Assembly (NCBI GenBank): GCA_900095095.1
Contig: FMBT01000646.1
Span: 1-29,484, forward strand
Source of the DNA: Fragilariopsis cylindrus CCMP1102
Taxonomy: Eukaryota; Bacillariophyta; Bacillariophyceae; Bacillariales; Bacillariaceae
Direction of reading: 5' to 3'
DNA length: 29,484 nt
The position numbers and the translations under genes are program-made. How positions within the stretch are numbered: position 1 is the first letter of the stretch; each line of letters opens with the position of its first letter. The notes beneath the pieces were generated by a model. That model did not search any database, was not told where the DNA came from, and saw only the letters and a list, made by a program, of their open reading frames with translations. Below are positions 9,358 to 24,887 of this stretch, piece after piece.

Positions 9358-9362
9358 GTTTG
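9358..9362. repeat. Target-site duplication of element 1, left copy
   Basis: GTTTG directly precedes the 5' LTR; the same five bases directly follow the 3' LTR at 17193-17197. Confidence 0.93.
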
Positions 9363-9753
9363 TGTTGGGGATTCAATTATTTATGGGTCCCGTGAGGTTT
9401 TCACAACAGTCATTTTAAGTCATGTCATGTACGTCGTGACACTTGTGCATGTTGTTTCCTCACAATAAATATATATATGCTGCGCATTATCGTGTGGTTG
9501 ATAATTGAAGAGAAAAGATGTGTCGTATTTACATTGCGTTAATGTAATGTAAGCACCTCCATCGGCACCTCGGATGTCAATCAATGTTGGTCATTATTTA
9601 TTATAGAACTTATGCAATAGGTAAATAATAACAACAAGTTAATAAGCTAGCCATACATAGTATTCAAACCTATATATCATCCTAGTATCTTCAAGCATTA
9701 CGTAATAAGCAACATACCAATATCCACGGCGTTGCGATTACTGTATTTCAACA
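9363..9753 (+). repeat. 5' LTR of element 1 (391 bp)
   Basis: Begins TGTTGGGG and ends TTCAACA (TGTTG/CAACA terminal inverted repeat). I compared it base by base with 16802-17192 and found no difference. An A/T run AATAAATATATATATG at 9463-9478 is a candidate TATA region or polyadenylation signal. Positions 9593-9608 are complementary to the first 16 bases after the LTR. Confidence 0.95.
9593..9608 (+). promoter_or_regulatory. LTR segment complementary to the primer-binding position of element 1 (candidate self-primer)
   Basis: ATTATTTATTATAGAA is the exact reverse complement of 9754-9769. If the RNA folded and were nicked after 9608, the free 3' end would pair with 9754 and be extended over the last base of the LTR (9753), as a primer must be. 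The same segment occurs in the 3' LTR at 17032-17047. Confidence 0.7.
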
Positions 9754-9769
9754 TTCTATAATAAATAAT
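9754..9769 (+). promoter_or_regulatory. Primer-binding position of element 1, self-complementary to its own LTR
   Basis: TTCTATAATAAATAAT begins at the first base after the 5' LTR. It does not start with TGG and does not resemble the plant Copia iMet site (TGGTATCAGAGC). It pairs perfectly with 9593-9608; after one mismatch, two further bases (AC) also pair. Confidence 0.72.
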
Positions 9770-9860
9770 CACAGTCATTGATTAGATTAATCGAATCAAC
9801 AACAACAACCACCTTACAAGATATACCTATTAGTATTCCAATTACTATCACCTTGCAAGA

Positions 9861-12167
9861 ATGGCTGTCACCGACAATAAACCTGCTGACACCACCAGTA
9901 CAACTGGTGGCGCCGGTAATGCCCTCTCTGCCAAAGAGAAGGAAGCGAAGGCTGCTGCTGCAGCTGCAAAGAACACAGCAAACCAAAAGAAGAAAAATCA
10001 TCCATCGAATGCCTCAAACAAGAAGAAACAACAAGTTGCGAAATCCAAGTTTGAAGGTTTAGCCTCCGGTACCAATCCTATGAAAGGAACTGTCATTGCA
10101 TTAGCTAATGGCAATCTACTGGGACAATATCGAACATACCAGAACACGTTGGCAGGATCGGCAGCTGCCGACAAAGCCTATGGACTTGATTCAGTTATCC
10201 TTGATTTGGTTGCTAAAATCGAATCTGATTTTGTTACATCAAAACCAGATCCTTTGCAACATTCAAACGTCGTTACCATCTACAAAAAAGATGCTTTGGG
10301 TGCAGATACTACTACACCAACTGGAGAGAAAAGACTAGTCTGTTTCGATCCTATCCTCAAGGAAAGTACGGATTCAAACTACTTCATCGATGTAAAGATA
10401 CAAAAGGCCAACTGGAATAACTATGACAGGTTCTCCAAAGCATACTATCGTACAGCGATTGGGAATGTAGAGGATGTTATCATCACCTACTGTCGCGCCG
10501 ACAAGAGAATGGCTCTTGTGGAAACTGAAAAAGATTTAATAGGATTCTTACAAATCCTCCGTTCAGTATGTGCACAAACCAATGGCATTGTTAAAGTCGA
10601 TCAAGAATTCCAAAACCTCCACACCTTACATGCTGCAATTGCTTTCAAGCAGGCAGCTAATGTAGATGACTCCACATTCTCAAAACAAGTACAAGATCGA
10701 TACAAATCAGCTATATTCACATGTGGAAAGTTCGCATTCGGACAAGCTTCATTTGACAAGGTACTACAATCAACTCTTCCGGCACCCGTCACTCTCGATG
10801 CTTATCTCAAGCTTACACCGGAAGATCAAGCACCATATGATAAACTTGTTGAAGAGCGAATTGTCGCTCGACTGATTGTGAAGAATTCATTAAATAAGAA
10901 TCTTAAAGCTCATTTAATGACCACTTACTCTACTGCTAAAGGCGATTGTTACCCCAATACAATCAATGACGCGCTAGCGTTGCTATCAACCTTTGCTGGA
11001 CCAGCAAAGAATGCACCTACTGAAGATGCTGTCGTGTCATATCACGAAGCATCATCCGTACCGGATCCAGTGTCATCTATTCAAGAGGAGGCTGAAGAAA
11101 ACTTATCTGATCCAGAACAAGAACTAACAATTGAAGAACTGCCACCGGATGTCATCAGTCCAGTTGAATTCAATGCATCAGTTATGGCGACAGTCATTGC
11201 TGAAGCCACCAAAGAGGCTGATAACGATCGTTTCTTTGGAGCAAGCTTTGCACAACTACAAGATGTCGATGACATCTATGATGACAATGAGCCAGATTTT
11301 GTAACCTGCGCCCATATCGCTGAACGTCCAGGAGATTCAACTGATTTTGACAGTAACTCTGACATTGACCATGCAGGAGACCGACATGGTGATTCAAGTG
11401 ACTGGGACACTGATGAATGGAATCGTGAACTTGATGAAAACAGAAATCGTCCTAAGACTGGAAAATCCCCCATCACCATCAACAAGGCGCATGGCTTTGA
11501 AACAGTTGTCTACCTCACAGCACAACGTGTTAAGAATACAGGAACAGTTCGAATCAAGCACTATGGTATCGACGAGCCAGATCTCATCAGCTATGAATAC
11601 GTTAGTCCTACCCCTGAACACATCATTGACTACTCTGATGTTATCCGTGAGAAATTGAAACTCTCAGGCATTCGTGATACTGAAACACTGGCTGAACTCT
11701 TTGAAGACTGCAGTATTGCAGAAGCCGCTAGAAGACTAGGTCAGCAACTTAGAGATGTCAATCAGACTTCTCTACATGGTGATACAGTCCGCTACCTCAA
11801 AGAGGAAACAGAGAGACACTATGATCATATCAGGTTCTACTCTGCTAGATATGATCGAATGATCACTGAAATTGGTCCAGATGATGAACGCGAGCTCTTT
11901 CCTGCAGCTCATGTGTTGTTGCACCACACAGTGGTGGCTGTATCAATCAATCAACGACGTCGCAAACCCAATCGGTGGATCAATAAAGTGACCCGAAAAT
12001 TGGTCAACTGCGGTGTTAACACAGTTGAGTTGCTTGAGTCCAAACTAAACGATAATACACTAAACCTTGTGCTCCAACGCCATGGGTTACCGAAATTCCA
12101 CATAATGACCATCCATGGATTCAATTTAATCCTAGATACGTCGGATTTTCGTCAGGGCCGTTCTTAA
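9861..12167 (+). CDS. gag: Gag polyprotein of element 1
   Basis: 768 codons; the ATG lies 107 bases after the LTR. The N-terminus is Ala/Lys-rich (KEKEAKAAAAAAKN, NKKKQQVAKSK), followed by FEGLASGTNPMKGTVIALAN, the usual start of a diatom Copia gag core (FEG...L.G.i). Helical capsid-like sequence follows to about residue 380, then an acidic Glu/Asp-rich region (about 390-560). A C-terminal part contains ERHYDHIRFYSARYD and RRRKPNRWINKVTRKLVNCG. No CCHC zinc knuckle is present anywhere in the frame, which is unusual; the basic RRRKPNRW patch near the C-terminus may bind RNA instead (inference). The frame ends TAA at 12165-12167, 11 bases before the pol ATG, which is in the -1 frame. Structural role: particle assembly around the element RNA. 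Confidence 0.88.
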   Translation: MAVTDNKPADTTSTTGGAGNALSAKEKEAKAAAAAAKNTANQKKKNHPSNASNKKKQQVAKSKFEGLASGTNPMKGTVIALANGNLLGQYRTYQNTLAGSAAADKAYGLDSVILDLVAKIESDFVTSKPDPLQHSNVVTIYKKDALGADTTTPTGEKRLVCFDPILKESTDSNYFIDVKIQKANWNNYDRFSKAYYRTAIGNVEDVIITYCRADKRMALVETEKDLIGFLQILRSVCAQTNGIVKVDQEFQNLHTLHAAIAFKQAANVDDSTFSKQVQDRYKSAIFTCGKFAFGQASFDKVLQSTLPAPVTLDAYLKLTPEDQAPYDKLVEERIVARLIVKNSLNKNLKAHLMTTYSTAKGDCYPNTINDALALLSTFAGPAKNAPTEDAVVSYHEASSVPDPVSSIQEEAEENLSDPEQELTIEELPPDVISPVEFNASVMATVIAEATKEADNDRFFGASFAQLQDVDDIYDDNEPDFVTCAHIAERPGDSTDFDSNSDIDHAGDRHGDSSDWDTDEWNRELDENRNRPKTGKSPITINKAHGFETVVYLTAQRVKNTGTVRIKHYGIDEPDLISYEYVSPTPEHIIDYSDVIREKLKLSGIRDTETLAELFEDCSIAEAARRLGQQLRDVNQTSLHGDTVRYLKEETERHYDHIRFYSARYDRMITEIGPDDERELFPAAHVLLHHTVVAVSINQRRRKPNRWINKVTRKLVNCGVNTVELLESKLNDNTLNLVLQRHGLPKFHIMTIHGFNLILDTSDFRQGRS

Positions 12168-12178
12168 AGGAAGACCGA

Positions 12179-15100
12179 ATGCCCTATCATCCGTATGATA
12201 CTGGATGGATTAAAGCAATCTATTCATCCATCTGTTTAGGATGGTTTCTACTCTCCACCGGATTACTACCCAGGTATACATGCTACTCGCTATACAATAA
12301 TGTTTGGATCACATATTGCAAAATCATTGCATATATGTGTGAAGCAATTGGCGACGCTATCATAACAGCTGGTGAAACAATCATGGAGATCGATTCCATT
12401 ATATTCAATAAAATTAACTACATCAACCCGATCTACAATGTGCTTCAACGATTTGAGCACACGCTTTCTAGACTTAATATTTTCACTCATCCAATCATTG
12501 GGATGCGTCCAAAATCCATCTCAAGAAAGCACAACTCCAAGAACAACAAGACCTCCTCCGGAAGCCACCTACATGTCTTCTTTGCGCGCAAACGCAGCCA
12601 TAAGAGGCACTCTGTTATCTCAGGGCCAAACCCACATTTGGCGAATGATAACAGCCGAACCAAGGATCGAACCCATGCTGGCACCCAGTCTCGATCCAAA
12701 ATTCCTCGTATCCCTACACATACGTCCACTTCAGTCATCTATCCTATAGATGACCCATCATGTCAAGATCTCACCTGGTATGATGCCATCTCTCCTTACT
12801 GGACTGGTGGTATGATTTGGGACGGTGCCTATGTCCTTAATCACCAAGTTGTCTCTGTTACAACTGATCCTATCTTTGTTTCTGATTTACTTCCGGCATT
12901 TGAATTGTCTGCTACAATTCAAACACCGAAAGCAAGGAGTGGGGGTAAGCATGTCGGCCCACGGACCACCATTGCTATTGATAGCGGATCTACTATTCAC
13001 ATCTTCAAAGATGCCTTCCTCCTGGCTGACATCCAAGCTGATGAGAACAGTTCTATTTCCGTACGGACTACAGATTCGAAGTTCCAGATCAAGGATATTG
13101 GACGTCTGTGTGATGACCTTGACACTCTGCCTCTCCCATCGGACGGTTACTATTTCTATCCTAATGGAGTAGCAAACTTGCTATCACTAGCCATGCTAAC
13201 TGATACCAAGCGAGTGGTTATGGACAGCGCCATTGACAATGCAATATATGTATTCAATGATGACGGTTCATATATCAGATTTGGTAAGACATCCAATGGG
13301 ATGTACTGTATTGATATCACCACCGATGACGACCACCATATCGTCATGGCACATCAAACTGTAAAAGGGGAGAGTGCACACTTTTCTGCAATCGATTGTA
13401 GAAGAGCTGCAAAAGTCAGGGATCTCCAAGAAGCACTAGCATGCCCTAGTGACTTTGATCTGGCTAATGCAATTGAACATAATGTTATTGGTAACAGCCC
13501 TTTCACAAGGAGGGATGTACGTATTGCCAAACAAATATTTGGACCTGACGTCCCAGCAATGAAAGGAAAGACTGTCAAGAACAAGAGCATTATGCCAAGA
13601 GAGGATGACGTAACAGACATCCCATCTTTCATCATGAAAGAATACTCCAATATCCACTTAGCAATTGACATCATGCATATCAACGGAATCAAATTTCTTA
13701 TATCACACTCCAAGCACATTGGGCTGATACAAACATACTGTGTTAGAAAGAACAATCGAGATGCCATACTGGCATGCATTCTGAAGATAGTACAAACATA
13801 CAAAAGTAGGAGTGTGTTTAAGGTTGTAACAATTGAAGCGGATGGTGCATTCGAATGTATCAAACATGAACTACAAGACAAGCCATACAACATCACTCTA
13901 TCAACATGTGATGCTGACAGGCATGTTGAGACTGTTGAAAGACAAATTAGATTCCTTAAAGAAAGAATCAGAGCAGTAAGAATGATGATGCCATACAAGA
14001 AACTTCCCAAGCGATTCACAGTTGAAATGGTCCTCCGAGTTACAATGCTAATCAACTCACTACCCAAACAGAATGGCATCCATTCCATATTATCTCCACG
14101 AGAAATAGTAACAGGAAAGAAATTCAGATGCCCTACTGTCAAGGTAGGACAATATGTCCAAGGACATACCGGAGGAACTAATAGTACTGATGAAGAAAGA
14201 TCTATCGATGCCCTGTACATCGGTCGTGCCGACAATGGCAGTGGTCATGTGGTGTTCAAGCTGAGCACCAAGCAACCCGTTTCTGTCAACAGGGTTACAA
14301 TCATTCCAACTACTGAAGCCCTGATCAATACTGTCAATGAGATTGGAGAACAAGAAAGACAACCAGAAGGAATTGAATTTGCTGACATCAATGGAAGAGT
14401 TACATTAGACGACTTTGCTGCTAATGTGATCAATGATGATGACAGTAATGCCTCTGATATTGATTTCAAAATGGATGAAGAATATCGAGAGGAGCTTCAA
14501 AAAGAACTGAAGCTGGAAACAAAAGATAAGACTGTTATCGAATCAGATCCGGATTCAAAACAGTTTGGTGGCGACAGTGATGTCCCTGACTCACAAATCG
14601 ACTTCTTCCAGAATCCGATACAGCAACACAACAGGGACACTCTTAATGAAAATGAAGAGGAACCTATTATCCTTGAAAGTCGCACCCGATCTGGCATGAA
14701 TCTAGCTAACTCAATGTCAAAGCAGGAGTGTGGGAAGGATAAGAAGAAGAAGAAGAAGAGAAGAATCATCGTTGAAGATAGTACTAACTTAATTGAAGAT
14801 GATCTTGACGACGATGATATGATGGAATCCAACATAGCATCAGAAGATGACATTATTACTAATGGTACATCTGAAGAAGAAGTAGAAGAAGAAGAACCAT
14901 CCGCTCCACGTGAGCTTGATTCGAACCTGGGTTCATACTGGAACCTAGCACATTCAAAGCAAGCATACGTCCTTAACACCATTGCCTCATATAGTCATGT
15001 AGAGGCATCGAAATCAACTCCACAGTATGGTTTCAATAGGGGGTTAAAGGAATTCGGCGCAATGGGATATGAAGCAACCATGAAGGAACTTGATGACAAC

Positions 15101-16738
15101 CTCCTAGGAATGGGAGCAGTGAAGATGTTATTACCATCGGAAGCAAGCCGTTCGATACGATTCGAAGCCCTAAACTATCTTATGTTCCTAAAAAGAAAAA
15201 GATGTGGAAAGGTTAAAGCAAGAGGATGCGCGGATGGGAGACCCCAGCGTGAATACATATCAAAAGATGAATCCAGCTCACCAACTGTATCTATATACGC
15301 TCTAATGACATCCTGTCTAATGGATGCTATTGAAGGCAGGAAGGTTGCTACATGTGATATACCAGGCGCTTTCCTACAGGCTGATTACCCAGCTGATAAG
15401 GACTGTTACCTCAAGTTCGAAGGAGCAATGGTGACAATGATATGTGCCATTGATCCTAAATACAAGCGTAATATAGTGGAGAGGAATGGAAAAGAATATG
15501 TATATGCGAAACTGACCAAGGCTGTGTATGGTACACTCCTTGGAGCTATCCTATTCTACAAGAAGCTCAGTAAACAATTGATTGAATGGGGATATGAACC
15601 AAACTGCTATGATAGATGTACCTTCAACAAAATGATCGAAGGGAACCAATGCACTATCCAATTTCATGTGGACGATTTGAAAATATCGCACATGAAGCAA
15701 TCTGTAATAGACGCAGTACTTGATGATGTAAACAAAGAATTTGGTACCATCAAGAAGCCATTATCAGCTACCACTGGTGACATACATGACTACCTCGGTC
15801 TAACCATTGACTATAGTGAAAAGAACAAGGTTAAGTTCACTATGTATGACTATCTAGAAGACATACTGGCCGAAATGCCAAGCGATATGAATGGAACCGC
15901 TCCCACACCAGCTAGTGATAATCTGTTTGATGTGGATGAGGAGTCAGAACTATTGAATGAAAAAGAAGCAGATTTCTTCCACCGATCGACAGCTCGGTTG
16001 TTGTTTGCTGCTAAGAGGGCAAGACCAGATCTCCAAGTGGCTGTTGCTTACCTCTGTACGCGAGTCAAAGCCCCTACACGCTCTGACTATCGAAAGTTGA
16101 CCAGAGTGATGAAATATCTGAGGTTAACAATATCCATTCCTCTCGTGTTGGGATGGGATGGAAGTGGAAAACTATTGTGGTCAGTAGACGCATCATTTGC
16201 TATACACAAAGACATGAGAAGTCATACTGGTGCTGTGTTAACATGGGGCCAGGGCGCACTGATGTCGATGTCCTTAAAGCAAAAGATCAACACGAAGAGC
16301 TCCACTGAAGCAGAATTGGTTGGAGTTGATGACGCTATGAATTTTATTGAATGGATTCAATTATTCGTTGGGGAGCAACTCAAGTCAATTAATCCTGATT
16401 CAATCCTCAACAAGATTGGTTCAGACGTTGTCATTCAACAGGACAACACGAGCACAATACAACTCGAGAACAATGGACAAGCGTCTAGTACCAAGAGAAC
16501 TAGACACATCAATATCCGATACTTCTATGTGACAAGCAAGATCAAAGAAGGAAGCATTCGTGTGATATATCATCCCACAAAGGAGATGGTATCGGATTAT
16601 TTGACTAAGCCATTGCAGGGGAGCTTGTTTAGAACTCATCGTAACTCCCTCATGGGCCACGATGAGGATTCGATAGCACAATGTAATAAAGAGTACAATG
16701 ATGCTAAGGCAGCTGCTGCCAAGGACCTTTCTAATTGA
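12179..16738 (+). CDS. pol: Pol polyprotein of element 1 (protease, integrase, reverse transcriptase, RNase H)
   Basis: 1519 codons, uninterrupted. The N-terminus (residues 1-75) is hydrophobic (SICLGWFLLSTGLLPRY, VWITYCKIIAYMCEA), which is odd for a Pol. Protease: IAIDSGSTIHIF with the catalytic Asp at residue 268. Integrase: a module with CPSDFDLANAIEHNVIGNSP and MKGKT in place of a clear HHCC finger, then a core with D497 (LAIDIMHING), D555 (EADGAFE) and E587 (HVETVERQIRFLKER). A Lys run, about 853-861 (KDKKKKKKRR), next to acidic stretches may be a nuclear localisation signal. Reverse transcriptase: CDIPGAFLQADYP with D1060, and FHVDDL with D1165/D1166 (His in place of the usual Tyr of YVDD). 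RNase H: D1337 (WSVDASF), SSTEAELVGVDDA, D1422 (QQDNTST), RHINIRYFYV, DYLTKPLQG. The pol frame is already open from 12056, overlapping gag by 112 bases, so frameshifting is an alternative to reinitiation. Confidence 0.95.
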   Translation: MPYHPYDTGWIKAIYSSICLGWFLLSTGLLPRYTCYSLYNNVWITYCKIIAYMCEAIGDAIITAGETIMEIDSIIFNKINYINPIYNVLQRFEHTLSRLNIFTHPIIGMRPKSISRKHNSKNNKTSSGSHLHVFFARKRSHKRHSVISGPNPHLANDNSRTKDRTHAGTQSRSKIPRIPTHTSTSVIYPIDDPSCQDLTWYDAISPYWTGGMIWDGAYVLNHQVVSVTTDPIFVSDLLPAFELSATIQTPKARSGGKHVGPRTTIAIDSGSTIHIFKDAFLLADIQADENSSISVRTTDSKFQIKDIGRLCDDLDTLPLPSDGYYFYPNGVANLLSLAMLTDTKRVVMDSAIDNAIYVFNDDGSYIRFGKTSNGMYCIDITTDDDHHIVMAHQTVKGESAHFSAIDCRRAAKVRDLQEALACPSDFDLANAIEHNVIGNSPFTRRDVRIAKQIFGPDVPAMKGKTVKNKSIMPREDDVTDIPSFIMKEYSNIHLAIDIMHINGIKFLISHSKHIGLIQTYCVRKNNRDAILACILKIVQTYKSRSVFKVVTIEADGAFECIKHELQDKPYNITLSTCDADRHVETVERQIRFLKERIRAVRMMMPYKKLPKRFTVEMVLRVTMLINSLPKQNGIHSILSPREIVTGKKFRCPTVKVGQYVQGHTGGTNSTDEERSIDALYIGRADNGSGHVVFKLSTKQPVSVNRVTIIPTTEALINTVNEIGEQERQPEGIEFADINGRVTLDDFAANVINDDDSNASDIDFKMDEEYREELQKELKLETKDKTVIESDPDSKQFGGDSDVPDSQIDFFQNPIQQHNRDTLNENEEEPIILESRTRSGMNLANSMSKQECGKDKKKKKKRRIIVEDSTNLIEDDLDDDDMMESNIASEDDIITNGTSEEEVEEEEPSAPRELDSNLGSYWNLAHSKQAYVLNTIASYSHVEASKSTPQYGFNRGLKEFGAMGYEATMKELDDNLLGMGAVKMLLPSEASRSIRFEALNYLMFLKRKRCGKVKARGCADGRPQREYISKDESSSPTVSIYALMTSCLMDAIEGRKVATCDIPGAFLQADYPADKDCYLKFEGAMVTMICAIDPKYKRNIVERNGKEYVYAKLTKAVYGTLLGAILFYKKLSKQLIEWGYEPNCYDRCTFNKMIEGNQCTIQFHVDDLKISHMKQSVIDAVLDDVNKEFGTIKKPLSATTGDIHDYLGLTIDYSEKNKVKFTMYDYLEDILAEMPSDMNGTAPTPASDNLFDVDEESELLNEKEADFFHRSTARLLFAAKRARPDLQVAVAYLCTRVKAPTRSDYRKLTRVMKYLRLTISIPLVLGWDGSGKLLWSVDASFAIHKDMRSHTGAVLTWGQGALMSMSLKQKINTKSSTEAELVGVDDAMNFIEWIQLFVGEQLKSINPDSILNKIGSDVVIQQDNTSTIQLENNGQASSTKRTRHINIRYFYVTSKIKEGSIRVIYHPTKEMVSDYLTKPLQGSLFRTHRNSLMGHDEDSIAQCNKEYNDAKAAAAKDLSN

Positions 16739-16801: not shown

Positions 16802-17192
16802 TGTTGGGGATTCAATTATTTATGGGTCCCGTGAGGTTTTCACAACAGTCATTTTAAGTCATGTCATGTACGTCGTGACACTTGTGCATGTTGTTTCCTC
16901 ACAATAAATATATATATGCTGCGCATTATCGTGTGGTTGATAATTGAAGAGAAAAGATGTGTCGTATTTACATTGCGTTAATGTAATGTAAGCACCTCCA
17001 TCGGCACCTCGGATGTCAATCAATGTTGGTCATTATTTATTATAGAACTTATGCAATAGGTAAATAATAACAACAAGTTAATAAGCTAGCCATACATAGT
17101 ATTCAAACCTATATATCATCCTAGTATCTTCAAGCATTACGTAATAAGCAACATACCAATATCCACGGCGTTGCGATTACTGTATTTCAACA
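16802..17192 (+). repeat. 3' LTR of element 1 (391 bp)
   Basis: Identical to the 5' LTR at a constant offset of 7439; TGTTG...CAACA ends. Confidence 0.95.
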
Positions 17193-17197
17193 GTTTG
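17193..17197. repeat. Target-site duplication of element 1, right copy
   Basis: GTTTG, matching 9358-9362. Confidence 0.93.
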
Positions 17198-18224: not shown

Positions 18225-18229
18225 AGTAC
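18225..18229. repeat. Target-site duplication of element 2, left copy
   Basis: AGTAC, repeated at 24883-24887 directly beyond the other LTR. Confidence 0.9.
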
Positions 18230-18550
18230 TATTAGAAGTAAATACGAATACATACAGTAGTTTGTTAACTAGTTAGTATTAGAGTTACAATGATGTTAGA
18301 GATTAAAGTGAGCGCAGTATGTTGTTACATCCTGTGATCTTATCTCATGTGTTTGTGTTTCTTGTGTTCAAAGCTATCTTCATCTATTATTGAGTGATGT
18401 GGCGATACGATAGGTCTTGTATTGGATCTTACAGCCAAGCAAGCCAAGTGTGAATCATATCCCATAACTGTTATTTAACTGCACCTCGGTTGTATCACAG
18501 TTGTTGGATAGTTAATCGAAGTGGTCGACTATCGCGCTAATAATTCAACA
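18230..18550 (-). repeat. 3' LTR of element 2 (321 bp)
   Basis: On the minus strand it starts TGTTGAATTATTAGCG and ends CTTCTAATA, giving TG...TA rather than TG...CA ends. It matches 24562-24882 except at 18350 (t) versus 24682 (a). The stop codon of pol lies 22 bases inside it. Confidence 0.92.
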
Positions 18551-21500
18551 CACCCTTGGATAGTTGTTGGACTTTTATTTTTTATATATAGGTAGATGGG
18601 TCTAACAGTACTATGGTGTTTACCAGAGTGATGTTTAGTCGGATAATCGGCTAGGTTCTCAATACCTGGTCCCCACACATAATCAAATTGTTTTTGTTCA
18701 AACCTGTCTTTTAACCAGTAAAATCTCATGTCAATGGCTTTTGACCTTTTTTGTTTGATAGTACCAGTAATAATACCACGTGCTGTTGTGTTATCTGTTT
18801 TGATTGGTGTAGGTGGTTGTGGGTGTCCCATTTCAATGAGGCAATTTCGTTCTGATACAGCTTCTGTGGCGTTCAGGTAGATACCTGCCACTTCTGCTTC
18901 CGCTGCTGATGCCATAACATTTTTGATAATTTTTGCTAGTACAAGAATGGGTCCATTGAATAATGTGCCGTCCGTGCTTCCTAGATAATGGTAGCCACCT
19001 GCTCTGCTTCTTGCTTCAGGGCGCACTAAATATGCTGCATCTGAATCGATTCTGAGTATCATGTCGCTGGCCCGGTATATGATTTGACCATTTGGATTGC
19101 TTGCAGCATAATTTAGGATATATCTTGTTGCTGCCAATGTTGCTTCAGTACCATTTGCTGTTGATGATGCGATGTCATTAATTGCATGTAGCATAGTGTC
19201 ATCTATAGCTCTGGCGTAAAATAGGAATTTTCCTGTGACGCGTTGTATGAATTTGATTTGATCTTCATCTAACTTATTTGTCAAGTCTTCTTTTACATAT
19301 TGTACTTTGACACCATAATCAGGTCGGTCTATCTTGGAAGGTCCTGAATGTCGTTGTTTTGGGATGATGTGGTTGAATTCCTTCAGTGCTTGTTCTACAT
19401 ATCCATCCATGGAGCAGATGACTTCACGGTCAATATAGTTCCATTTTAGGTGAATCCCGATATATTGTTCGGCTTTCCAATCAACTTTTAATGGGTATTT
19501 ATCTCGTAGTGCGGTAACTAGGTGTTCTACATCTGCTTGTCGGTGTACTTGATACCAAAATCATCCACTACTAGTGTAAAGTTGATGTCGCGTTCCTTGT
19601 GGCTGAATAAGCCATCAGTGCGTTTTTCTTTTACGTAACCATATTTTTCTAAGTGTTGTACCAAGTCATCATGTGCAATCTTACCGGATTGCTTGAGACC
19701 ATACCATGCCTTCTTGATTTTGGCATATACAAATCCATTGACTACTAACTTGTCTAATAAGTAGTGTTTGATTATATTCGGTGGTATCATATCATATTTG
19801 AATCTGACATATTCTTCGTCAGGCAATAGCGAGCACAAGTACATGTTCGATATATCTGCGGTGCAGTACTTGGCACCTGGAGTGGAAACAACTGAGTTCC
19901 AATGCATCTTGATTGTTTCCATTGAAGCTGTATGCGTTGTTACGTTGCCTTCGTAGTCAGTCCTATCACCTCCTGCTGTGATTCTAGTACGGTATGGTTC
20001 TGACTTTTCTGGTCTAACAGCAACTACATATCTTGGGTACGTTACTTGTTTGTTACGGGGTACGTCCCCTTTGCGGATCCAATCCAGTACATCGACTCCT
20101 TCAGTTTCACCATAACCTTGGAATAAACGGGCAAATTCGTTTTCTCCTGATTGGAGCCAACGATTTTTGATTACAGGATCCTTGTGATTGATTAGATCTC
20201 GATACTTCGCCATCTTATTGAGGCCGTCGTCCCAGACGGCGCCTGCAGCTCCGAACGCAAAGTTTGGTTGTAGCTGTTCTACTGCCTTGCTGTATCCATT
20301 GCTAAACCTATTTGGTTGTTGTTGCACTGTAGGATTTCGGTTATATCGGTTCAGACGTTGTACCTTTTTAGGACGTTGGCTTTTGGCTGTAGGCATATTG
20401 TTGATGACGGTGGTTGGTAGACTGTGCCGAATAGGGAGTAGTAGTAATGCTTTCCTGTTGGGTTTAGTATACTTTTGAATCTTCTTCCGGTATTGTTTTA
20501 CTTCATTGTATGACATCTCTTCTGTATCACCATCGCGGTACACTATTTTGTAGTACTGTTCAATCGGGTCATATCTGGTGATTTCACCTTCGTGGAAACC
20601 ACTGCTGAACTTTTGACGTATGATGGTACCGATGACGTACACTTTGTTAGTGGCTGTGGTGGACCTTGTTACACGTTGGGTGTCAGTAGTTATTACTTCC
20701 ACCCTTGGAAGTGGCACAGGGGTTGTTGGTGCAGTAGTTGCGGTGTCATCTGCTTGTAAGCAAAGGATTTTCTGAATTGCAGTGATAGCCGTGTGTAGGT
20801 CCGTACCTTGGTTCATAAAGGGGAAATCACTTGGAGGTTGAGATAGTACTTTGTGGAGGTCCTGTAACACCAAGGTTAGTCGGTCGATAGGTGTAACTTT
20901 GGGTAGGGTACAATGCGATGGAAAGAACTCGACCGTATTGGATATACGATTCTGTTTGGTGTCCCTCATGTAGCAAGTGTAGTTCCTGTAGTGATGGGGC
21001 GCCCGTTCGATATAGAAACCATGGCTTCCATGGTTGTCCCAGCTACCTCGTTCACCTCTTCTGTCATGGACTATGACCTTACAGCCAACTGGGGCCATGG
21101 GAGTGCGATTGAAATCGAATTCGCCATGTACTAGTGTATACGCTGATATTAATGGATTGATTCTTGATGGGCGCATTAGATTCATAGCTAATACTGTTTG
21201 TTTAATAAACAGGTCCCAACAGTTCTTCGGAAAACTCGGATCAGCGCCTTCTCTGAAAGCAATGAGCTTGGACTTGAAGGTTTGAATGGCACGTTCTGCA
21301 TGGTTCAATCTATGGTCTCCTGGCGATACGATCTGGTAGTCTAAATTCAGTTCCCCTATTGCTGCAATAAGTTCTGTCGAGATTTCATTATCTAATCGCA
21401 TTACACGCGCTGTGAAACCTCTTTCCTTGAGTTCATCATAACAAAACTTGAATGCTGCTACGAGTTCGCTTGACTTCCTTGATTTTATAGGCACTGCATT

Positions 21501-22634
21501 GATGTAGTTAGTGTCATAATCGAACATAACCATGATGTATTTGTGGCCTCTTGCTGATGTAATAGGATATCGTCCTGGCAAATCCATTGCAATAAGTTGT
21601 TTCATATCATTACCATCAATTAAGAAGGTACCTATGTCATGTAATTTCTTCTTAAGTTCAATACGTTCTTTTCTAACTGATAGGTCAATGATATTCGATG
21701 TTCTGACGTTCTTCTTGATCATTTTCTGGTTCCCAAGTGTGGTCTGTTCTTTCTTGGTGCAGTGCTTTCGTACTCTATCTGCGCTCAGTCCCGGCCATGA
21801 CTTGAACCAATTGTTGTTGATACAGTTGATCCATTCTGGTATAGAAGGTGAGCCTAACGTCATGTGGAAGAAGTTTGTCAATGCTGCGACTGTTTGCACT
21901 TCGTATGCGCTAGCTGCAGTAGCCATCCCTGCGGAGTTTCCGATGGGATTGATTCGATTCACCCTTGGAAGTGCATTCACCCTTGGAAGTGTATGCGCCT
22001 CGTCGTGTATTGGCACCGAATAGAGTCCATTTTGCCGTCGTCCTTCCATAACGGTTGTACCTGTAAGGATTGGGGCCTTGTCGGTGACTGTCACTTTGTT
22101 TTGTGAAAATAGGACGTGTAAGTTGTTGTCACAGAGTTTTCCCACTGATAAGAGGGGCGTTGATACGTCATCGAACTTGTGGCAGGTACGTGCTAGTGGT
22201 GGGAGCTTCGCGAGCGACAGGACGTCTGTAGATGTGGACGTCATTATGGAGTTATTTGCACACTTCACTTTCATGCCATTGGACGTCGCTTGATGGTTGT
22301 CTCCGCGGTACGTTGTTGGTAAGAAATGGTCTGTTGCTCCAGAATCAATAGCACCTCTTGTTACGGGGTACCTGTCGACCAATACGTTGCAAACTTTTAA
22401 GGCTGCAGATTTTCGTGTTGGTCCACATATTAGATTGGATGGAAACGATACACGGAGTGATCTCCTGTTGGCATTCGGGGTGCATGGTACAAGTTGTTTA
22501 CGATATACGGTAGGCGTACGTGGTTGTTGATATAGATTACTCGAAGGGGATAGATATGTAGTTGCTTTTAACATATAATTATTATTATTATTATTAATGG
22601 TTAATACACAGTCACTACATTTATCAATATCCAT
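18529..22634 (-). CDS. pol: Pol polyprotein of element 2, interrupted by one frame break in reverse transcriptase
   Basis: The first ATG is at 22634, 15 bases after the gag TGA and in the same frame. Protease: GAIDSGATDHFLP, catalytic Asp at about residue 97. Integrase: FFHMTLGSPSIPEW and WFKSWPGLSADRVRKHCTKK, then the core with IAMDLPGRYPIT, MRLDNE and LNHAERAIQTFKSKLIA. Between integrase and reverse transcriptase, about residues 668-717 form a small module (GTIIRQKFSSGFHEGEITRY, YKIVYRDGDTEEMSYNEVKQ) like a Tudor/chromo-type barrel. Reverse transcriptase: CTADISNMYL (Asp about 927) and LVVDDF (Asp pair about 1024-1025). The frame breaks about 10 codons later, near 19537, where one base appears lost; the other frame continues DVEHLVTALRDKYPLKVDW and SMDGYVEQALKEF. 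RNase H: LRIDSDAAYL, SAAEAEVAGIY, KTDNTTARG, RSKAIDMRFYWLKDR, LADYPTKHH. It ends at 18529, inside the 3' LTR. Confidence 0.9.
18551..18557 (-). promoter_or_regulatory. Polypurine tract of element 2
   Basis: On the minus strand AAGGGTG directly precedes the 3' LTR. It lies within the pol coding sequence. Confidence 0.55.
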
Positions 22635-22649
22635 CACCTTCCCACGTCC

Positions 22650-24525
22650 TCATTCTGGATTGTCGTACGGCTTATGATCTACTGGGCTCCACCACTTGTT
22701 ATGGAACTCGTTCCTGGATTCATTACCTCCCATAGGATTCTGCATGGTCGCATCATCTTTATGGTCTTTCTTTTTCTTGAATGAATGGCAACCCTTGCTG
22801 TCATGATTCAAGTTACAGCCACACGAGTAGCACCAGAACTTCCACTGCGCCATACGTTGTACAATTCCTTAGTTGCCTTTTCCTTCCTTCCTCCTTTTCC
22901 ACCACCAGTATTGGTTGATTTCATGGTATTGATTTCAGCTTTTAGAGCCTTCACTTCACGGAGTAGATCGGACATTGCAGCTAACTGCATACCGGATGCA
23001 GCAGTACCCGAAATGGATCCTGATACAGTACCGGTACCGTCGGTGTCAACGACCGATGGGACGCTTGAAGATTGGAAGGCAGTCTCCAAATGTAGTTGGT
23101 TGTTATTGAGGGTTTGCACTTCTGTCTCGTATTTTGATTCAAATGCGTCGACGCGGGCGATGAGGGCTTGTTGAACACTCATGGCACTATTGTCAATACC
23201 ATCTTCGGTTAGTTTCTGCAGTTCCTTAATGTATAGCTGCTTAAACCGTTTCCATCGACCGATGACTGGTTTGTGTAGCATATCGGCTTCCCACTTGTCT
23301 TCAATCAATCGGAGATACGTGTTGTTGTGGCTCCCACTACTACGGATCTTGGTCTGGCAGTTGATGATGAGGGTATCCCATGAATATTCGAATTCAACAT
23401 TGGAACTCCCTGAAAGGATATCGATACAATGTTTATCATGTTCCATTTTCTTCAAGTATGATACCGGTCCTTCAGGTGATGGCACGTACGCTCGTGCAGT
23501 GATGCACCCCATTAGATCGATATATGCTTTCTGTTTCTTAACACGATCTGATACCTTTCCTTCAATGAAGTTGAGAGCTAGGCGGACGGTATAGTTCAAT
23601 GGAAGTGTTCCATAATCATTCATTTGCTCCTTCATGGTTTCGGGAAATCTTCTTACTGTCGCTTGTAGAGCTTCAGCATTCCAATGGGTCTCCTTCTCGT
23701 AGATCTTCTTCAGCGCTTCATACCTTCTCCATGTTCCACTGGCATCGCCGGTGGGTAAGGCCACTTTCTTTGCCGGTGGTGGGAGTCGGGCAAGATCATC
23801 TCCATATCTCTCGCAGTTGCGCTTCAGGGTATCCACCAGATATGCATGTCCTGCATCTCTTTCGGTGTGTTGGCAGCCTTCTAGTGCATTTCCTAATGCC
23901 TCCCGGAATACTACAGCATCAGCAAAGTTGAAGTTGCTCCTTTCTGGTGATTGGTATTCCCTGCCTAGGTGATCATCGATTGATGGTAGATCCTTTCCCA
24001 TACTGCCAATGCTGGATATCAATACAGTTGATGCCGTGTCGTCGTCGTCGTGTGGTGTGTAGAGAGCTGGTAATGATGTCAGGTACTGTCGTGTAGAAGT
24101 TTCTAATATATTATCGATATAGGGTTGGTTACGTAATACGGTATATTCTAATTGGGTTCCCACAGTAGGTACTAATTCTAAGTACTGTCTACTGATGTCG
24201 ATGGTGTGGTATCTTGCACCGGAATCTACTAGGACGCTTGTTGTTGTAGCTGCGATGCTGTTTAATGTTGAAACAGGATCTACTAAGTATGCTGCGTCGC
24301 TGTTGCCTTGTAGTGTTGTATCTACACCAGCGATCGATACGTCGTCGTCTGCACTGGATGTGGTCGATGCGTCGTCTTCTGAGTCGGAACTTCTAATAGA
24401 CCAAATGGGTTGTTGTTGTTGTAATCGATATCTTGATCGTTGTCGTAATCGTTGTCGTCTGGACTGATGGTCCTTCTGTTACGATTTGGTACAGTATTCC
24501 AACCGGTAGGTGTAGTTGGTAACAT
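22650..24525 (-). CDS. gag: Gag polyprotein of element 2, with two frame breaks
   Basis: The likely start is the ATG at 24525, 36 bases after the 5' LTR (MLPTTPTGWNTVPNRNRRT). After about 45 codons the frame shifts near 24389, consistent with one A missing, into SDSEDDASTTSSADDDVSIA and then the long frame through 24163. This includes the helical body YLVDTLKRNCERYGDDLARL, HWNAEALQATVRRFPETMKE and VKALKAEINTMKS. The long frame runs to 22808, but the nucleocapsid-like end is in the -1 frame from about 22855: MAQWKFWCYSCGCNLNHDSK followed by GCH, a Cys-Cys-His-Cys knuckle with spacing C-x2-C-x5-H-x4-C. It then runs to TGA at 22652-22650. An extra DSGA motif (TSVLVDSGARYHT, Asp at 24224-24226) lies in the N-terminal third. 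Confidence 0.82.
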
Positions 24526-24543
24526 GTACTTGTTGTTGTTGTA

Positions 24544-24561
24544 GCTCCTTTAATCTCTAAC
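24544..24561 (-). promoter_or_regulatory. Primer-binding position of element 2, self-complementary to its own LTR
   Basis: On the minus strand GTTAGAGATTAAAGGAGC starts at the first base after the 5' LTR. Its first 14 bases pair perfectly with LTR positions 24640-24627 (sense CTTTAATCTCTAAC); after a one-base bulge, GAGC pairs with GCTC. It does not start with TGG or resemble a tRNA 3' end. Confidence 0.72.
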
Positions 24562-24882
24562 TATTAGAAGTAAATACGAATACATACAGTAGTTTGTTAA
24601 CTAGTTAGTATTAGAGTTACAATGATGTTAGAGATTAAAGTGAGCGCAGTATGTTGTTACATCCTGTGATCTTATCTCATGAGTTTGTGTTTCTTGTGTT
24701 CAAAGCTATCTTCATCTATTATTGAGTGATGTGGCGATACGATAGGTCTTGTATTGGATCTTACAGCCAAGCAAGCCAAGTGTGAATCATATCCCATAAC
24801 TGTTATTTAACTGCACCTCGGTTGTATCACAGTTGTTGGATAGTTAATCGAAGTGGTCGACTATCGCGCTAATAATTCAACA
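24562..24882 (-). repeat. 5' LTR of element 2 (321 bp)
   Basis: One mismatch to the copy at 18230-18550. The edge at 24562 follows from the AGTAC duplication and agrees with the start of the self-complementary primer-binding segment. Confidence 0.92.
24627..24645 (-). promoter_or_regulatory. LTR segment complementary to the primer-binding position of element 2 (candidate self-primer)
   Basis: Sense GCTCACTTTAATCTCTAAC, LTR positions about 238-256. Its last base (24627) pairs with the first base after the LTR (24561), the position needed for priming. Confidence 0.68.
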
Positions 24883-24887
24883 AGTAC
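24883..24887. repeat. Target-site duplication of element 2, right copy
   Basis: AGTAC, matching 18225-18229. Confidence 0.9.

Follow-up and report, generated by a model that had tools for sequence, protein, structure and literature searches.

The window, meaning the whole stretch of 29,484 nucleotides of Fragilariopsis cylindrus CCMP1102 DNA analysed here, holds two LTR retrotransposons, element 1 on the plus strand and element 2 on the minus strand (18225-24887). To the left of element 1, an open frame at 7394-8710 matches a Fragilariopsis cylindrus protein at 94% identity across 93% of the frame. The features of the two elements are:

9358-9362, no strand: target-site duplication GTTTG, left copy of element 1
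9363-9753, plus strand: 5' LTR of element 1, 391 nt, beginning TGTTGGGG and ending CAACA, the same as the 3' LTR
9593-9608, plus strand: putative self-primer within the element 1 LTR; 9593, the A of TCATTATT, is the predicted RNA 5' end, and the RNase H cut is predicted after 9608
9754-9769, plus strand: primer-binding site (PBS) of element 1, from the first base after the LTR, exact complement of 9593-9608
9861-12167, plus strand: gag-like ORF of element 1 from the first ATG (open frame 9834-12167), without a Pfam match
12056-16738, plus strand: pol open frame of element 1, 1560 aa, with the RVT_2 reverse transcriptase at ~15200-15880
16802-17192, plus strand: 3' LTR of element 1, with a copy of the primer at 17032-17047
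17193-17197, no strand: target-site duplication GTTTG, right copy of element 1
18230-18550, minus strand: 3' LTR of element 2, with a copy of the primer at 18295-18308
18529-24478, minus strand: coding frames of element 2, gag-like at 22808-24478 and pol at 19527-22649 and 18529-19560, with a weak RVT_2 match
24548-24561, minus strand: PBS of element 2, GTTAGAGATTAAAG, exact complement of the primer, from the first base after the LTR
24562-24882, minus strand: 5' LTR of element 2, 321 nt, differing from the 3' LTR at one place; target duplication GTACT at 24883-24887 and 18225-18229
24627-24640, minus strand: putative self-primer of element 2, CTTTAATCTCTAAC, with TCA directly before it

By its RVT_2 domain, the sole Pfam match in its pol (51.7 bits against a cut-off of 31.6), element 1 is classed as a Ty1/copia-type LTR retrotransposon, and a named Ty1/copia protein of Pseudo-nitzschia multistriata was found as a match at 54% identity. 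The filing of element 2 under Ty1/copia is less sure, since its RVT_2 match of 17.3 bits falls below the cut-off and it sits on a very long branch in the reverse transcriptase (RT) tree. That tree, built from 22 chosen rows with long branches, places element 2 beside the group of element 1 (93/88) and does not settle whether the two are sisters. The target duplications of both elements (GTTTG and GTACT) are 5 bp long, as in Ty1/copia, while the LTRs of element 1 run from TG to CA and those of element 2 end in TAATA. No Pfam match to an integrase core was obtained in either element; in element 2 the RT is preceded by an SH3_retrovirus match that falls below the cut-off. Between this weak match and the RT match, the pol frame of element 2 (19530-22649, minus strand) also carries a Tudor-like domain (PF21743 PTM_DIR17_Tudor, 38.7 bits against a cut-off of 27.2), possibly a chromatin-reading module for target choice.

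The two LTRs of element 1, at 9363-9753 and 16802-17192, are identical at 391 of 391 bases and have GTTTG on both sides, which fixes the LTR edge and places the start of the pairing at the first base of the internal region (LTR+1). From this base, 9754-9769 (TTCTATAATAAATAAT) is the exact 16-base reverse complement of 9593-9608 (ATTATTTATTATAGAA). An earlier note on this DNA had described both the LTR edge and the complementarity, and direct comparison of the sequences bears out the two observations. Comparison of the same LTR stretch with 28,346 other start positions across the window gave a longest anchored match of 12 bases, at one position. Folding of 9500-9800 as RNA, which the note had suggested, returned the helix in the minimum-energy structure, and the fold was better than all 100 shuffles (z -3.96). 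The 16-base match is A/T-rich with a single G-C pair, making it weak on its own, so that the case is carried by the relatives of the element.

Flanking the element 1 helix, 8 further bases are complementary (AATCAATG at 9580-9587 and CATTGATT at 9776-9783; 6 of 1000 shuffles). Complementarity beyond the helix amounts to 3 bases in L075 and does not stand out clearly from shuffles in L080, E2 and L093 (151, 77 and 286 of 1000, respectively). A helix extended past the RNA start was rejected as a common feature, the 8 bases of element 1 having no equal in these four.

The anatomy of element 1 is repeated in element 2 with unrelated letters, the match there being 14 bases long and again starting at LTR+1. 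Relatives of both elements were found by searching the genome (67.9 Mb, 818 contigs) with RT and gag sequences; among the matches listed, those of element 1 ranged in RT identity from 100% down to ~40%, with a few lower. Twenty five-prime regions were taken, 15 from at least 78 element 1 gag matches, two from at least 25 element 2 gag matches and three (L090-L092) from at least 40 matches of the LTR-PBS stretch itself, and the latter three are not an independent sample because that stretch was the query. LTR ends rest on comparison of both LTRs in elements 1 and 2, and on the LTR-end letters CAACA, CATCA, AACA or TAATA elsewhere. An exact 14-16 base complement of the own LTR begins at LTR+1 in 16 of the 17 gag-placed junctions and in two of L090-L092. 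Together with the two window elements this gives 20 of 22 junctions (18 of 20 without them), a count that leaves out the ~50%-identical element-2 clade and the 40-41% relatives of element 1. The two failing junctions are L078, with one G-U, and L092, with a G-U and an A-C at the 3' end of the primer. Two further regions contributed no junction, L099 lying within gag and L100 having none visible.

The pairing is maintained while the letters change. Nine distinct primer/PBS pairs, aligned from the start of the PBS, are Watson-Crick in all 126 cells (9 by 14), and the pair changes at 13 of the 14 positions, each with two to four pair types; the covariation that the earlier note had named as the test for related copies is thus present. 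In a 13-by-13 cross table, nine families score 14-16 against their own LTR, whereas the 156 off-diagonal cells reach at most 11 (L080 with L085, both ways) and are otherwise 8 or less. Related families share ancestry, so the nine pairs are not nine independent events. Further, if the primer rewrites the PBS, the covariation would arise by copying and would require no selection on the helix. The primers are A/T-rich and the duplexes weak (-9.9 to -17.8 kcal/mol). When folded from the predicted RNA start, 11 sequences plus L093 placed at least 14 primer bases on the PBS, with at most two missing; in L093 the U5 gap is 68 and 14 of 14 bases pair. Across the junction rows, the pairing between primer and PBS spans 65-145 nt.

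A census of the motifs gives the same arrangement. The element 1 motif, searched with G or A at one place and with mixed arms not distinguished, has 97 exact matches in the genome, of which 28 inverted pairs lie 152-164 nt apart from start to start and 41 matches are unpaired, with no other configuration within 100-250 nt. Both arms are kept in 25 of the 27 full junctions listed among the matches of the LTR-PBS stretch. For element 2, 56 matches comprise 16 inverted pairs 79-82 nt apart and 24 unpaired copies, with nothing else within 40-250 nt.

Two side observations concern the bases next to the paired segments. All eight distinct pairs of the element 1 clade have C directly after the PBS (window position 9770 in element 1), where element 2 has G and L093 has A. 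In ten element-1-clade rows, CTTA, TTTA, TCTA or CCTA (YYTA; 9609-9612 in element 1) comes right after the primer, a possible RNase H site signal.

Beyond these families, no relatives were found among the viral contigs searched. Two contigs filed under bacterial MAGs (Flammeovirgaceae and Rhizobacter; L103 and L104) encode relatives of the diatom Copia pol and are likely eukaryotic contamination of the MAGs. L103, at 45% identity, contains an inverted pair of 13 bases at a plausible position (2 of 2000 mononucleotide shuffles) and has no match to phage records; its LTR edges are undefined and it was therefore left out of the junction count. No LTR junction was seen in L104. In an element-2-like copy, L101 (C306:111985-112585), a gag-like frame appears by eye to start after the end of pol with no clear LTR between them, which may reflect tandem copies or an unusual gene order.

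The relationship was also used to forecast a PBS. For the C88 family (L102), at 47% RT identity, the 3' LTR alone was read beforehand; it contains TCACTCTTTTTAATTTG, and with the A of TCA taken as the start, the PBS was expected to contain AAATTAAAAAGAGT. This 14-mer has 16 exact copies in the genome, against two for the reversed control. At C88 itself, each LTR contains one copy, and a third stands 81 nt beyond that of the 5' LTR, in the forecast orientation. The exact third copy occurs at one of the four family copies and none is listed at the sisters C91, C192 and C613. A search tolerating up to 3 mismatches, with 59 places listed for the 14-mer and 30 for the control, showed CAAATTAAAAAGAG directly after CAACA in all four, with only the last base varying (T, G, C and C). 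The varying base is the one opposite the A of TCA, so three copies are one base off the forecast. At C617 and C640, degraded fragments contain a variant resembling the PBS; the exact complement of this variant is present at no other place in the genome searched, and the complement expected for it was not found in an LTR.

These observations are best accounted for if element 1 primes its minus-strand DNA with the 5' end of its own RNA, in the manner of Tf1, a reading to which we give a probability of about 0.85. The earlier note had proposed this principle for element 1, and the covariation, element 2 and the forecast PBS of a distant family now support it. Two Copia-type families in one diatom thus appear, from the sequence comparisons, to self-prime instead of using host tRNA. 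Under the proposed mechanism, the RNA of element 1 would start at or near A9593, and its first 14-16 bases would fold back over U5 and pair with the PBS at LTR+1. RNase H would then cut the RNA strand after 9608 (9608/9609), and the freed 3' end of the primer would be extended from 9753 back to 9609, followed by transfer to the 3' end of the RNA and the usual synthesis. The first strand transfer would need R to extend beyond 9609. As the plus strand would copy the attached primer, the PBS would be rewritten from the primer in each round; complementarity would be kept in this way, a change in one arm being written into the other.

A conventional primer was sought among host tRNAs, using 19 different sequences, some of them alike except at the ends, from 30 of 63 listed loci, the latter being 63 of 2,708 first-look candidates scored. 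Anchored at its start, the PBS of element 1 matches these 19 sequences over at most 5 bases and those of its relatives over 6 or fewer; the exact motifs of elements 1 and 2 occur in none of the 63 listed tRNAs, and none of the 97 element 1 motif matches lies within 20 nt of any of them. Priming of element 1 by tRNA was rejected on the anchored scores and the absence of its motif among these tRNAs. The test is able to find a primer where one exists, as among five other Copia copies (L069-L073), which pair with their own LTR over 3-5 bases at offset 0 and over 4-7 when offsets of up to 3 are allowed, the PBS of L072 and L073 matches the middle of tRNA-Asn over 14 bases. The site of L069 and L070, GGTTATGAGCCC, resembles what we take to be a half-tRNA-iMet (no such tRNA is in the test set, where the best match is 4). 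The PBS of L071, GGTTAATTTACCCAAATC, has the look of a half-tRNA site and no match over 6 bases among the tRNAs read, and L074, cut by the contig end, has no LTR pair. Priming of element 1 by an internally cut host tRNA, which the Asn and presumed iMet sites suggest for other Copia elements of this genome, is most improbable given the low anchored scores and the absent motifs. A related explanation holds that the helix is a structural RNA element, serving packaging, dimerisation or translation control, and that the true primer is another tRNA or host RNA. The stability of the helix would suit such a role, and the tRNAs compared came from 30 of the 63 listed loci. Yet the 3' arm occupies LTR+1, the position of a PBS, in 20 of 20 exact junctions; the nine PBS sequences would require several host RNAs, each of them also matched by the LTR of its own family, and at least two other Copia families of the genome have a recognisable half-tRNA site. 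This explanation is accordingly very unlikely. That an A/T-rich coincidence was passed on to copies is scarcely conceivable: the 16-mer is of low complexity, but different letters pair in different families while off-diagonal matches stay at 11 bases or less, the anatomy recurs in element 2 and a PBS was forecast beforehand.

The remaining alternative accepts self-priming and concerns where the RNA starts, which the earlier note had left between a position near 9590 and one further upstream. Transcription from upstream would make the primer the 3' end of a longer 5' fragment; a TATA-like run at 9463-9478, 121-123 nt upstream of the element 1 primer, would fit such an origin, as would the 8 additional complementary bases of element 1. 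The run is real but has no common counterpart: TATAWA at this distance is absent from the 11 other junction stretches long enough to cover it (12 scanned, L080 being too short), and a TATA-driven start was rejected as a common feature. The extra pairing, too, shrinks to 3 bases in L075 and to the level of shuffles in L080, E2 and L093. In 9 of 12 junctions complementarity stops instead at the A of an initiator-like TCA motif, and in two element-2 rows it stops one base after TCA, with no TC before the primer in L080 and L081; the TCATTAT of element 1 fits the quoted initiator-like motif at 6 of 7 positions. Since the pairing stops at or next to TCA and no TATA is shared, we infer that U3 is 9363-9592 and that the RNA starts at 9593. 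The evidence now leans towards this position, and a primer cut from a longer RNA is unlikely.

If self-priming from the RNA 5' end is taken further, diatom Copia elements may have abandoned tRNA primers, perhaps repeatedly, in the clades of element 1 and element 2. A PBS rewritten every cycle from a capped RNA 5' end would make the DNA a record of the transcription start, with complementarity ending at the initiator A and this base poorly kept, as in the C88 family, where the A faces T, G or C. The C after the PBS in the eight element-1-clade pairs could then be a base added opposite the cap. This extension is speculative and, taken as a whole, doubtful.

Primer choice is a basic step of the LTR-retrotransposon cycle. 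Should the proposed mechanism be true, the primer would be exchangeable within one superfamily, with self-priming beside half-tRNA Copia elements in one genome, and the switch between them would become testable. Such elements would be freed from host tRNA pools, and a simple rule would allow PBS and RNA start sites to be predicted from LTRs. There is also a consequence for annotation pipelines: one diatom genome paper retained only LTR elements with an LTRdigest PBS and PPT (PMC7466962), and filters of this kind call for caution where self-primed elements are concerned.

The closest known systems lie in the Tf1/sushi group of Ty3/gypsy (Tf1, Tf2 and Tj1), where the PBS likewise complements a segment of the own LTR. 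In Tf1 the first 11 bases of the RNA pair with the PBS, and the RNase H cut falls between bases 11 and 12 (PMC7175516), and Tj1 has a PBS complementary to an LTR segment (PMC4600332). The diatom elements differ in being Ty1/copia by RVT_2, in their 14-16 base complement and in being known from sequence alone; as element 1 has RVT_2 and no Ty3/gypsy reverse transcriptase, it would work like Tf1 but is no member of Tf1/sushi. The earlier note knew of no described self-priming Copia element, but self-priming has been predicted for the plant Ty1/copia TAR lineage and was proposed earlier for Houba and Osr-1 (PMC6317226). The TAR prediction, made in plant hosts by complementarity only, used 10 or more bases complementary to the LTR, lying 0-5 bp beyond the 5' LTR (PMC6317226); element 1 has 16 bases and element 2 has 14, both at 0 bp.

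Among diatoms, the Ty1/copia elements CoDiI and CoDiII were studied with sequences from Fragilariopsis and Pseudo-nitzschia (PMC2806351). A word search of the main text of that paper gave no instance of 'primer binding', 'tRNA', 'complementar', 'hairpin' or 'self', and the single 'PBS' is a buffer. No report of self-priming was found for diatom Copia elements, or for stramenopile retrotransposons, in the largely open-access literature searched. The fungal GalEa Copia elements, with their Conserved Hairpin Site, resemble the diatom elements in being without a tRNA-type PBS; their site is a local palindrome, and its authors report having found no complementary repeat in U5 (PMC5445492), whereas the diatom PBS pairs with the LTR over 65-145 nt. 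The half-tRNA Copia elements share the superfamily, the genome and the position of the PBS at the LTR end, and differ in that their PBS matches the middle of a tRNA (Asn). Self-priming Copia elements are thus already predicted in plants, and the diatom lineage would be a new occurrence, with a proposed mechanism and with good support from comparison among its families.
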